64,000 nucleotides of DNA from Citrobacter amalonaticus (lineage in GTDB: Bacteria > Pseudomonadota > Gammaproteobacteria > Enterobacterales > Enterobacteriaceae). The notes beneath the pieces are model-generated. The model was given only the letters and a program-made list of their open reading frames with translations, had not been told where the DNA came from and searched no databases. The stretch is from positions 1,116,001-1,180,000 of the forward strand of contig NZ_AP024585.1 in assembly GCF_018323885.1 (NCBI RefSeq). Reading direction: 5' to 3'. The position numbers and the translations under genes are program-made. This document shows, piece after piece, positions 56,355 through 60,366 of this stretch; the stretch's first letter is position 1; the number at the start of each line of letters is the position of its first letter.

Positions 56355-57896
56355 TCAGAAGGCGATTTGTTGCAAATTTGTGGGCAAGTTAACACTTACC
56401 CGCGTACCGTGCCGCGATTCCAGCGCCAGTTCACCCCCGAGGGCGCTGACCCGCTCGCGCATTCCCTGAATGCCAAAACCGGCTATCTTGTCTGCACTGA
56501 TCCCCACGCCGTTGTCGGACACGTCCAGATGCAGCATATCTCCCTGCTGACGCAGAACAATTCGTACTTCGCTGGCCCCGGCGTGTTTACAGATGTTGTT
56601 GAGCAACTCCTGTAACAGTCGATAGAGAGTGAAGCGCACCGTTTCATTCTCGGGCGTGGCGGTAAGCTGATAGTCAAACTGGCAGTGAATGCCGCGTTCC
56701 GTAAAGGCAAACTCGTTGAGCAGGTGGAGCAGCGCCTCTTTGAACGACAGTTCGTCCAGCGCGGGTGGGCGAAGCTGGCGCAACAACTGGCGGGTGGAGT
56801 GATGGATTCGCCGGGCGAGATCGTTGATCTGGCTGGCGGCGGCCTGGGCTTGCGCCGGATCGTGCGCCCGTTTTACCAGTTGCGACTGGATCTGAATGGC
56901 GGTGATGTTCTGCCCAATCTCGTCATGCAGTTCGCGCGCCAGGCTCTTGCGCGTATCCTCTTCGGTATGCACCAGTTTCTCGGCCAGCGCGCGCCGCGCC
57001 GCCAGTTCCGCTTCCAGACGCCGGCGATAATGGTGCAGGTTTTGCGCCAGATGCTGCTGACGACTGATGGCGATCCCCAGACCAATACCGAGCAGTGACT
57101 GTGTCGCGAGAAAAATCTCCAGTTCAATCAGATTGCTGAAGCCCACGCCAATCTGGCGGGCGATGGTGATCATCATGCTGCCGAGTAGCCCCGAGAGCAC
57201 GCCACCCTGCCAGCCGAATTTCCACGCCATCACCACGTTGGGCAGAAACACCACAATCAACAGCAGGCGTTCAATCTCTGGCGACAGCACCATCTGGGTG
57301 CCAATGCCAATGATAAAAAACAGGCTGCACCAGATGATGAGCGAGGTACGCAGCGGCGGGTTATTGGTGTCCAGACCCAGCAGGTGGTAGCGATGCTGCT
57401 GGCGCAGAAACTCGAAGATCAGATAAACGAACGGCGTCAGTAGCACGCCACCGGTAAACGATGCCAGCCCGAGCAGCATCGCCGGACTTTTGACAAACGG
57501 CGACAGCAGAGCGGCGTTGAGCAATGAGGCGGCTGTTACCGTGGCCAGCAACAGCGTCAGCCGCTGCCAGTAAAGAGGGAAACGGTACCAGAAAGCCTGT
57601 GCGAGGCTGGCGGGAATCATGCTGATAAGCGGTGTGGTCAGCAGAATATAACCATTGAGCAGTTGCTCGCTGTGCAGCCAGAACATCATCATCATCGGTG
57701 GCAGCACCAGCGCGAGCCAGTAGCGGCGTGAAAGCAGGATCAGCAGCGCCAGGTAGACGCCGTGCGGCAGGAACAGGGCCGCCTGCTGGCCGTTGTGGGT
57801 CAGATAAAAACCGAGCGTCCACAGCATCAGCCAGCCGGTGCCCCAGGCCAGCACAATAAACAGTGAGATGACGACGTGGCGGAGGTTGTGCGACAT
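56355..57896 (-). CDS. UhpB-like membrane sensor histidine kinase
   Basis: 513 residues from the ATG complementary to 57894-57896, overlapping the response-regulator stop by one base (TGATG). The N-terminal 280 residues hold about eight to ten hydrophobic helices of the MASE1 type, as in UhpB. The cytoplasmic part has the HisKA_3 phospho-acceptor motif ELHDEIGQNITAIQ (His about 324) and an HATPase domain with the N box QELLNNICKHAGASEV and the G boxes VSDNGVGI and GFGIQGMRERVSALGG. It is expected to phosphorylate the upstream-encoded regulator in response to the UhpC-like receptor. Confidence 0.9.
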   Translation of the reverse strand: MSHNLRHVVISLFIVLAWGTGWLMLWTLGFYLTHNGQQAALFLPHGVYLALLILLSRRYWLALVLPPMMMMFWLHSEQLLNGYILLTTPLISMIPASLAQAFWYRFPLYWQRLTLLLATVTAASLLNAALLSPFVKSPAMLLGLASFTGGVLLTPFVYLIFEFLRQQHRYHLLGLDTNNPPLRTSLIIWCSLFFIIGIGTQMVLSPEIERLLLIVVFLPNVVMAWKFGWQGGVLSGLLGSMMITIARQIGVGFSNLIELEIFLATQSLLGIGLGIAISRQQHLAQNLHHYRRRLEAELAARRALAEKLVHTEEDTRKSLARELHDEIGQNITAIQIQSQLVKRAHDPAQAQAAASQINDLARRIHHSTRQLLRQLRPPALDELSFKEALLHLLNEFAFTERGIHCQFDYQLTATPENETVRFTLYRLLQELLNNICKHAGASEVRIVLRQQGDMLHLDVSDNGVGISADKIAGFGIQGMRERVSALGGELALESRHGTRVSVNLPTNLQQIAF

Positions 57897-58525
57897 CAAT
57901 GCCCCGCCAGTAACTGATGGTCGAGAGCGAAATGAACCAGATCGATGGTGCTGTGACAGTTCAGCTTGCCCAGCACGTTGGCGCGATGGACATGGACCGT
58001 TTTATGGCTGAGATCGAGTTTGAAGGCAATCTCCTTAACGCTGTCGCCTTTGACCAGTAAATCAAACACTTCCCGTTCGCGTGGTGTCAGAACTTCCAGT
58101 ACCGGTGATGACGGTTCTCCACCACGCAACGCCCGCAGCGCATCCGCGCAGAGGTAATGTCCCCCCAGCCCAACGGAACGGACGGCCTGCACTAACTCTT
58201 CCGGCCCGCAGCGTTTGGTCAGATAACCGCTGGCTCCCGCATCCAGCGCGCTCTGCACGAAGGCTGGTGTGTCATAGATGCTAAGAATAATGGCGCGAAA
58301 TTGCGGCCTCTGTGCCCGCAGGCGTTTCAGCAGGCTCAGACCGTTTTCGTCCGGCATGGCGATGTCCATCACCGCAACGTTAACGTCGTCCTGCAACAAC
58401 GCAGGCCAGGCTTCCGCCGCGCTGCTATACTGGCCTGCGACGTCGAGGTCTTCTTCGAGACTGAGTAACTGCGCAAAGCCGGAACGCACCACCACATGGT
58501 CGTCCACCAGCACCACACGTATCAT
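57896..58525 (-). CDS. UhpA-like response regulator (NarL/FixJ family)
   Basis: 209 residues. The receiver domain has the phospho-acceptor Asp54 in AVMDIAMPDENG with the acidic pair Asp8-Asp9 (VLVDDHVV). The output domain is a LuxR-type helix-turn-helix (LTPREREVFDLLVKGDSVKE, then IAFKLDLSHKTVHVHRANVLGKL). First gene of a six-gene same-strand run (regulator, kinase, receptor, afuA, afuB, afuC) with two one- to four-base overlaps, so it probably switches on the importer in response to external sugar phosphate. Its upstream side abuts the large inverted-repeat block. Confidence 0.9.
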   Translation of the reverse strand: MIRVVLVDDHVVVRSGFAQLLSLEEDLDVAGQYSSAAEAWPALLQDDVNVAVMDIAMPDENGLSLLKRLRAQRPQFRAIILSIYDTPAFVQSALDAGASGYLTKRCGPEELVQAVRSVGLGGHYLCADALRALRGGEPSSPVLEVLTPREREVFDLLVKGDSVKEIAFKLDLSHKTVHVHRANVLGKLNCHSTIDLVHFALDHQLLAGH

Positions 58526-58650: not shown

Positions 58651-59275
58651 TTTTCATGTCATTTCATTAAAGGGGCCCGGGAAAGATTTCAGGCATTTCC
58701 ATGTCACTTCATCAAAGGGTTCCGTTCGCTTTATGACTATTGCTTCTTTGGAACTTACTCACCCGCGAACGTGTTAAGGGCGTTCTCCGCCACGCCCTTA
58801 ACAATCCCGGCTCCCGGCAAGGAAAATCGCCACTTCGTGGTCCATTCGCCTTATGTCGTCTGCCTTTCGGGTCGGGGTCGAGCCTGCATCCCTGCAGGCC
58901 GACCCCTCCGCCCGCTTCCCTGCGGGCGGACCCGGGCAGCCGTCAACGGTTCATCGATTTTCACGCCGGACCAATGGCACCGCTTCGATTCTCTGCTCTT
59001 CAGGTAAATTCATTTCGCTGTAAAAAAAGCAAACCGCAGAGATGGTCAGGTGTGGATGGGTCCGGCTGAAAATTGCCGACAATTTTCCTGCCGGGAGGCA
59101 GGATTGTTAAGGAGGCGGCGACGAGCCTCCTTAACACGTTCGCGGAAAATTTACGTCCAGAGAATCACGGTTCGTAGGGCGAACGGAACCCTTTGATGAA
59201 GTGACATGAAAACGTCTGTTCCACGGTTAGAAATACAAGGCGAACGGAACCGTTTGATACGGTGACATGAAAGTC
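58651..59275. repeat. Non-coding block of nested inverted repeats and strong hairpins
   Basis: A 30-base sequence at 58700-58729 is perfectly repeated in inverted orientation at 59179-59208, and each arm has a second, diverged copy further out (near 58653 and 59239-59269). Inside, 58764-58779 and 59129-59144 form another perfect 16-base inverted pair, each adjoining its own hairpin: GTTAAGGGCG/CGCCCTTAAC (58773-58802) and GTTAAGGAGGC/GCCTCCTTAAC (59106-59135). The stems differ but both pair, i.e. compensatory change. The centre adds GGGGTCG-GCCTGCA/TGCAGGC-CGACCCC and TCCGCCCGC/GCGGGCGGA stems (about 58874-58930). No protein is supported. It separates the divergent regulator and tauA genes. 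It could be a mobile repeat element or a structured RNA; I do not recognise the family. Confidence 0.75.
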
Positions 59276-59403: not shown

Positions 59404-60366
59404 ATGGCCGTTTCATCGCGTAATACACTTCTTGCCGCACTGGCATTCATCACCTTTCAGGCGCAGGCGGTGAACGTCACCGTCGCGTATCAAACCTCCG
59501 CTGAACCGGCAAAAGTGGCCCAGGCGGATAACACCTTCGCCAAAGAGAGTGGGGCCACCGTCGACTGGCGTAAATTCGACAGCGGCGCGAGTATTGTGCG
59601 CGCCCTGGCCTCCGGCGACGTACAGATCGGCAATCTCGGCTCCAGTCCGCTGGCGGTCGCCGCCAGTCAACAGGTGCCGATCGAGGTTTTCCTGCTGGCG
59701 TCAAAACTCGGTAACTCCGAAGCTCTGGTGGTGAAAAAAACGATTGGTAAACCCGAGGATCTGATCGGCAAACGCATCGCGGTGCCGTTTATCTCCACCA
59801 CCCACTACAGCCTGTTGGCCGCGTTAAAACACTGGGGGATTAAACCCGGTCAGGTGGAGATTGTGAACCTGCAGCCGCCAGCGATTATCGCCGCCTGGCA
59901 GCGCGGAGATATTGATGGTGCCTACGTCTGGGCACCTGCCGTTAACGCGCTGGAAAAAGACGGCAAGGTGCTGACCGACTCGGAAAAAGTCGGTGAGTGG
60001 GGCGCACCGACGCTGGATGTGTGGGTCGTGCGCAAAGACTTTGCCGAGAAGCATCCGGAGGTAGTGAAAGCCTTCGCGAAAAGCGCCATCGACGCGCAGC
60101 AGTCCTATATCGCCAATCCCGACGAATGGCTGAAGCAACCGGAGAACATCAGCAAGCTGTCGCGTCTGAGCGGCGTTCCGGAAGCCGATGTGCCGGGACT
60201 GGTAAAAGGCAATACCTATCTCACTCCCCAGCAGCAGACGGCTGAGCTAACCGGACCGGTAAACAAAGCGATTATCGACACCGCGCAGTTTCTGAAAGAG
60301 CAGGGCAAGGTGCCTGCGGTGGCAAGCGATTACAGCCAGTACGTCACCGACCGCTTCGTGCAATAA
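59404..60366 (+). CDS. tauA: TauA, periplasmic taurine-binding protein
   Basis: 320 residues, equal to E. coli TauA. A 22-residue signal peptide ([20 protein letters not shown], then QA) is followed by [20 protein letters not shown]. The aliphatic-sulfonate-binding fold (SsuA/NrtA type) is clear from [20 protein letters not shown] and [12 protein letters not shown]. It delivers taurine to TauBC for use as a sulfur source. The 128 bases upstream, after the inverted-repeat block, must hold its promoter; in E. coli it is Cbl/CysB-dependent, but I cannot place the site here. Confidence 0.97.

Follow-up and report, generated by a model that had tools for sequence, protein, structure and literature searches.

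A Probable Decayed Copy of a Dispersed, Inverted-Unit Repeat Homologous to TwoAYGGAY in Citrobacter amalonaticus

Introduction

The closest described relative of the DNA considered here is TwoAYGGAY (Rfam RF01731), which shares with it two neighboring hairpins with GGA loops. According to the open-access text of its description, TwoAYGGAY is found in the human gut, the gamma-Proteobacteria, and the Clostridiales, and is probably an RNA and probably not cis-regulatory (PMC2864571); the binding of CsrA has been proposed for it in the accessible part of a later source (PMC4333381). The available text on the CsrA/RsmE proteins gives ANGGAN as their recognition motif and apical hexaloops of the type CANGGANG as high-affinity targets, with CsrA bridging sites that lie 10–63 nt apart (PMC4894983, PMC3791407, PMC7652899). 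Two kinds of mobile DNA provide further comparisons, that is, the REPs, which are given as 20–40 bp long in the accessible text of PMC3733652, and the insertion sequence IS4, which, in the MG1655 strain of Escherichia coli, has the ends TAATGCCGATCAGTTAAG and CTTAACTGACTGGCATTA and a 12-bp duplication.

The window analyzed here is a stretch of 64,000 nucleotides of the C. amalonaticus genome (contig NZ_AP024585.1, positions 1,116,001 to 1,180,000). An earlier note, made from the sequence of this window, had singled out a non-coding element of nested inverted repeats at positions 58651..59275, and had offered a non-autonomous mobile element, a structured RNA, or a regulatory structure acting on the neighboring genes as possible readings. 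In our view, this element is probably what remains of one copy of a dispersed repeat, formed of two inverted units homologous to TwoAYGGAY, with transposing relatives and a selected fold.

Organization of the Element and of Its Counterparts in the Congeners

The sequence, the profile of the unit (270 positions), and the comparison with the congeners describe the whole element as two structured units in inverted orientation, now decayed, whose tails are repeated, and its non-coding character was upheld. It lies between the gene of a UhpA-like response regulator (57896..58525, minus strand; 190.6 bits, under the NCBIfam UhpA cut-off of 258) and tauA, which encodes the substrate-binding protein of the taurine ABC transporter (59404..60366, plus strand; 689.5 bits, cut-off 490). 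When the 625 bases are matched against themselves in inverted orientation, the best score is 111 bits, compared with a maximum of 33.7 in 200 block shuffles. The element includes an imperfect inverted repeat of 136 nt (77%), in which 58690–58825 pairs with 59083–59218, and within which the perfect 16-base inverted pair recorded by the earlier note was found (CGCGAACGTGTTAAGG / CCTTAACACGTTCGCG). The four units of approximately 30 bases described in the same note, two per arm, were all located, on the minus strand at 58651..58679 (outer left, the most diverged of the four) and 58700..58729 (inner left), and on the plus strand at 59179..59211 (inner right) and 59240..59272 (outer right). The terminal 30 bases or so of the unit are thus repeated in tandem in each arm (58651–58729 and 59179–59272), and the tail sequence is different in other congeners, yet is repeated there too.

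The left unit (58715..58983) is complete, with its RNA orientation on the minus strand, and covers positions 2–268 of the profile, at 221 bits. Its conserved core (58799..58972, minus strand) scores 167.4 bits with R1, a covariance model built on the unit core and including the window unit itself. On this strand, the long closing stem P1 is formed by 58951..58964 (5' strand) and 58821..58834 (3' strand), and encloses the two GC-rich central stems that had been noted earlier, that is, hairpin 4 (58907..58931), with the loop C-AGGGAA-G, and hairpin 3 (58882..58900), with the loop C-AGGGAU-G, both of the ANGGAN type. Hairpin 2 is found at 58830..58840 (minus strand), and hairpin 1, of the GGGCG/CGCCC type, at 58772..58803 (minus strand), with a perfect 12-bp stem (TGTTAAGGGCGT/ACGCCCTTAACA). 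Its equivalent in the right unit (59105..59136, plus strand), of the GGAGG/CCTCC type, also has a perfect 12-bp stem (TGTTAAGGAGGC/GCCTCCTTAACA) of different sequence, so that the claim of arm hairpins with changed, but still pairing, stems stands.

Between the two units, whose 5' ends face each other, lies a spacer (58984..59058), and its counterpart in the congener locus L008 has two terminator-like sites, where 0.3 were expected. In the right unit, R1 recovers the 5' and 3' ends of the core joined together, without hairpins 3 and 4 (59059..59109, plus strand; 38.7 bits), and the remaining 3' part (59078..59193, plus strand) corresponds to profile positions 153–268. The congener copy at the same place (locus L008) is a quasi-palindrome of approximately 650 bp, 69% self-complementary, in which a unit of approximately 265 nt is present twice, in inverted orientation and with divergence between its copies. 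The window copy has 121 bp fewer than L008 in its right arm, with CGAC on both sides of the junction (59077..59080), and the missing segment includes both key hairpins of the right unit. The comparison with this one congener clearly points to a 121-bp deletion at CGAC in the right unit, and the layout seen in the window is incomplete because the copy is a deletion derivative of the longer quasi-palindrome, a point that the earlier reading had missed. The single complete unit kept by the window copy is on the minus strand, in the reverse direction to tauA.

The tau locus is present in all eight congeners, including the source genome (G000). The element is found upstream of tauA in five of them (G000–G003 and G005), and no unit was found within 1.5 kb upstream of tauA in G004, G006, and G007. 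In two of the five occupied genomes, G002 (L010) and G003 (L011), the whole pair is inverted in relation to the flanking genes, when compared with L008, L009, and the window, which indicates that the long inverted arms may recombine. A structure of DNA or RNA that regulates this uhpA-like/tauA region in particular could account for the presence of the element at tauA in most of these congeners, and of a single unit upstream of the same gene in 17 of the 5426 genomes of E. coli. This reading is improbable, however, given the three congeners without a unit at this place, the two inversions of the whole pair, the broken right unit of the window, and the relatives that adjoin many unrelated genes, mostly at their 3' ends, which also leaves the special link to uhpA or tauA suggested earlier without support.

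The source genome contains one other copy, between an ORF of 453 amino acids, which we take to be a RhlE-like helicase, and a convergent ORF. At this second locus, the pair is present in five of the six congeners in which the neighboring gene was found, and in G006 its place is occupied by what is presumably a REP-type sequence. An insert of approximately 75 bp is common to two right units, those of the tau locus in G002 (L010) and of the second locus in G005 (L033), and adds hairpins, one of which has the loop AUGGAU, a further loop of the CsrA type.

Distribution, Pairing, and Genomic Context of the Unit

The DNA of the window has matches in 14 of 59 genomes, including its own, and the unit core (R1, E<=1e-6) was recovered in 51 of 149 Enterobacteriaceae genomes, again including its own, with up to 18 candidates scored per genome. 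Dispersed copies had been expected for a mobile element, and these matches portray the unit as a repeat dispersed among the genomes of the Enterobacteriaceae. The window DNA also has matches in 554 of the 5426 complete genomes of E. coli, with approximately 70% identity at the best places, and the units examined there occur singly. The proX unit, for example, is matched over at least 80% of the query in 531 of 5426 genomes, and K-12 MG1655 has another sequence at this place, presumably of the REP type. The unit is full or truncated in the asmA–yegH interval, where the 152-bp "RSA" repeat of E. coli is a possible candidate for the truncated form. A 21-base pattern of the right unit was found in 52 stretches of named Citrobacter, Yokenella, and Trabulsiella genomes, and the right unit of L002 had no match in the phage records. 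As a side observation, the unit and REP-type sequences appear to swap at the same intergenic place, both at proX in E. coli (L037, L040) and at the second locus of G006.

The arrangement of the units was surveyed in 84 de-duplicated clusters from 78 loci that had been chosen for matching. Forty of the 42 two-unit clusters are in minus-plus order, with the 5' ends of the RNA facing each other, and the gap between them is 44–95 bp in 38 of these 40 pairs; the remaining clusters are 22 single units and 20 arrays. At L048:6130-8754 (genome G018), the orientation of the eight units of the array alternates strictly, as in an outsized BIME. Other loci of G018 also hold arrays of units. A simple heuristic based on ORFs places 30 clusters between convergent genes, 34 between co-directional genes, and six between divergent genes, with 14 ambiguous cases, and the window copy belongs to the few in the divergent context. 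The intergenic position, inverted pairs, alternating arrays, and preference for gene 3' ends are all shared with REP/BIME/REPIN sequences, but the unit, at approximately 265 nt and with several stems, falls outside the REP size range.

Some loci contain further elements. In G034, the unit is split by an ORF of an IS110-family transposase at two loci (L063:15191-16570 and L064:4417-5924; 306.7 and 346.8 bits, NCBIfam cut-off 140), and looks as if it had been a target for IS110 elements. In G016, a match to the small RNA DsrA (L017:913-999, 73.8 bits) is separated by approximately 400 bp from the pair of units (L017/L065), and the flanks of this pair, judged by eye, have 11 bases in common (TGTCAGCGGGG).

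Relationship with TwoAYGGAY

The earlier note knew of no named family with this layout, which has to be revised, as Rfam TwoAYGGAY is homologous: the sister copy in the source genome scores 44.0 bits with RF01731 and a copy in G016 scores 49.2 (cut-off 43), and five further matches in these loci lie below the cut-off. For the window copy, RF01731 has no match at E<=10. The window copy is thus to be seen as a homologue, rather than a proven member, and its loops AGGGAU and AGGGAA fit ANGGAN, but fail the strict AYGGAY criterion. The assignment of the window copy to an Rfam family on its own had been tried, and returned only chance-level matches, the link being found through the sister copies; the genome-wide search with RF01731, under stricter filters, listed none in G000.

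In the opposite direction, R1 recovers RF01731 loci in G034, G010, and G027, at 128, 55, and 51 bits, respectively; G034 supplied training rows for the model, and G010 and G027 did not. The RF01731 locus of G045 (L066) was not found by R1 at E<=0.1. Taken together, these matches argue for the common descent of the window unit and the members of TwoAYGGAY. The loops of the present units differ from the strict AYGGAY form, being of the ANGGAN type, and mostly AGGGAU.

Several genomes contain RF01731 itself as a repeat in multiple copies. It has matches in 12 of 59 relatives (E<=0.001; up to 39 candidates scored per genome), with up to 21 matches listed, and exceeds the cut-off in seven of the 59. 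Among 274 Gammaproteobacteria (up to nine candidates scored per genome), there are matches in 17, of which 13 are over the cut-off. Three or more additional pairs in minus-plus order are among the matches listed (G351, G461), and the 14 control genomes gave no match. The inverted pairing sets the units apart from the published TwoAYGGAY, in that it was not found in the accessible text of PMC2864571 and PMC4333381, and no mention of mobility, pairs, or IS4 ends was found in the open-access text that also included PMC11701678.

Transposition of the Relatives in the Citrobacter freundii Group

In many of the Citrobacter copies, the flank beyond the 3' end of the unit reaches a common terminus, similar to TTAACTGAACGGCATTAC. 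When an IS4-like end is defined as a sequence with at most 5 of 18 mismatches to CTTAACTGACTGGCATTA within 150 nt of the unit, such ends are found in 49 of 79 named Citrobacter-type flanks, against 14 of 3420 shuffled flanks, and also in three of four flanks in G030 and two of two in G016. No IS4-like ends were found in four E. coli flanks, 49 in G018, 11 in G009, five in G034, three in G024, two of a C. freundii plasmid, and one of K. aerogenes.

Target duplications were sought in 16 of 30 pairs, those that had independent flanks, contained no N, and matched both termini within 5 edits. Seven of these 16 pairs have direct repeats immediately next to the element with a score of at least 6, against four of 240 mispaired flanks, and four of the 16 have them with a score of at least 7, against none of 240. 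The other nine had no clear duplication, and one of the 16 (L127) was mis-anchored and counted as negative. This test replaced that of palindromic flanks, in which three of 18 loci reached a score of at least 18, against four of 306 mispaired cases, with means of 13.5 and 10.3.

Three loci can be compared with their empty sites. At L168, a terminator-like hairpin (AAAAATGGCTCCC-loop-GGGAGCC-T run) is unbroken in six congeners, and the element lies between CCACGTACGGGA and CCACGTAAGGGA, with a 12-bp duplication; in two of the six rows, the overlap was 27 and 11, respectively, rather than 12. At L160, an unbroken hairpin of the GGCCCCG-loop-CGGAGCC type is found in ten congeners, and 12 bp are duplicated, with differences. 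At L146, a 9-bp duplication was read from three sequences, the other eight of 11 comparison sequences being too diverged at the junction. The IS4-type ends, the duplications of 9–12 bp, and the empty sites together show that pairs of the C. freundii group have transposed, at two of the three loci into terminator hairpins.

The ends of these pairs, within 2–5 of 18 bases of those of IS4, and their 9–12-bp duplications, close to the 12 bp of the E. coli IS4, are features shared with IS4 and with MITEs moved by it, and a length of 601–724 bp with no transposase inside is a further likeness to MITEs. The cargo is different, being a pair of covarying structured units, as is the terminator hairpin used as the target at two loci. 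An IS4-family transposase probably moves these pairs in trans. IS4-like transposases (E<=1e-50) were found in five of 59 relatives, and in neither G000 nor G016.

The test that had been suggested for mobility, that is, dispersed copies with target duplications, was thus positive for the relatives in the C. freundii group, and negative for the window copy, whose flanks have no duplication (the best flank match is 5 of 6 bases). IS4-like ends were found in none of 11 flanks in the window genus, the window copy included. This copy differs from an IS4-derived MITE in having neither IS4 terminal repeats nor a target duplication of IS4 size; we infer that it either lost its IS4 ends or never had them, and it is most likely the relic of an old insertion which has ceased to move.

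Selection on the Fold and the Conserved GGA Loops

The left half of the element folds at -118.4 kcal/mol on the minus strand (z = -5.18), with stems supported by the alignment, and at -112.2 kcal/mol on the plus strand (z = -6.40); as both strands fold about equally, folding energy alone cannot name the strand. More informative evidence was provided by an alignment, by sequence, of 28 unit cores (A4). Standard pairs fill 94.4% of the pair cells, against 76.3% after shuffling and at most 45.4% when the partners are slid, although the slid versions are at a disadvantage here, as the structure came from A4 itself and was extended by hand by four pairs. Cells changed on both sides number 155, against 41.4 in the shuffled alignments, and such cells occur in 24 of 33 pairs, against 16.2; the count of additional pair types stands out less (46 versus 41.0), and was reached in 15 of 500 shuffles. 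The strand indicator, in which G-U is compared with A-C pairs, gives 166 versus 18, but just 28 versus 17 without two of the pairs, in an alignment fitted to the structure.

The pairing-preserving change that the earlier note had seen in the stems therefore holds when more copies are aligned, and the stem differences do covary, above both controls, which shows that the fold has been selected. It might be supposed, instead, that the element consists of chance remnants of unrelated repeats, with stem differences that are not covariation, as the window copy is broken and has no ends. Such an origin is highly improbable, however, given the covariation and the full pairs of the same layout found in many genomes.

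The conservation of the loops was examined in the best 150 of 185 R1 matches, from 100 loci, which were fitted to R1 and included 142 distinct sequences (A5). In hairpin 4, the loop is ANGGAN in 139 of the 142, and C-ANGGAN-G in 134, across 40 distinct stem sequences. In hairpin 3, among the same best 150 of 185 matches, C-ANGGAN-G is found in 119 of the 142, and GGA in 128. In the 131 units in which it was measurable, the distance from the start of one GGA to that of the other is 27–29 nt. Both loops of the window unit fit the CANGGANG hexaloop type of CsrA-binding RNA. As the two loops keep C-ANGGAN-G, a CsrA-binding transcript is predicted to be plausible, and CsrA would be the leading candidate partner of the unit. 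The presence of csrA in all 17 RF01731-positive genomes, against 235 of the 274 sampled Gammaproteobacteria, goes in the right direction, without discrimination. The GGA in hairpin hexaloops is also a feature of the CsrB/RsmZ-type RNAs, from which the unit differs in having two conserved loop sites and in being dispersed and mobile.

Two readings of the selected fold have to be weighed. In the first, which we rate a little short of probable, the selected product would be an RNA that presents two CsrA-type hexaloops approximately 28 nt apart and holds one CsrA dimer. In the second, the fold would serve the mobility of the DNA, which seems possible, but is the less favored of the two. In its strict form, held to be equally possible, the repeat would be purely selfish DNA, whose fold is recognized on the single strand by a moving or copying enzyme, with the GGA loops being DNA that binds a protein, and no role for an RNA. 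In the REP/REPIN and IS200/IS605 systems, hairpins are recognized in this way, on single-stranded DNA, by the mobilizing enzyme. The dispersal, inverted pairs, and alternating arrays of the unit are compatible with this, as are the strong folding of both strands and the spacer, whose counterpart in L008 has no promoter-like site. Transposition through IS4-type double-strand ends, which lie outside the unit, would, however, leave no need for the folded core, and both loops match the published CsrA/RsmE hexaloop in its fixed and its free positions. The structured RNA and the non-autonomous mobile element, which had been offered as separate options, both fit the family.

Conclusions

On the sequence evidence, two inverted units homologous to TwoAYGGAY together form the dispersed repeat of which the window contains one broken relic, and the meaning of the window itself is modest, the interest lying in the family. 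A broader proposal, which we put forward tentatively and regard as rather unlikely at present, is that the repeats of the TwoAYGGAY class are mobile CsrA sites, in which IS4-ended inverted pairs insert into terminator hairpins, and the read-through transcripts of many operons gain a CsrA-binding 3' extension. If true, a selfish element would titrate a global regulator of its host, or put those mRNAs under its control.

A named family of structured RNAs that behaves as a paired, mobile repeat appears to be new, with none being reported in the open-access text searched, and offers a reason for the many copies of this family at unrelated loci. A structured RNA of unexplained function, listed since 2010, would become a mobile repeat with ends, a target preference, and a testable partner, which points to transposition as a way in which the binding sites of a global RNA-binding regulator may spread.
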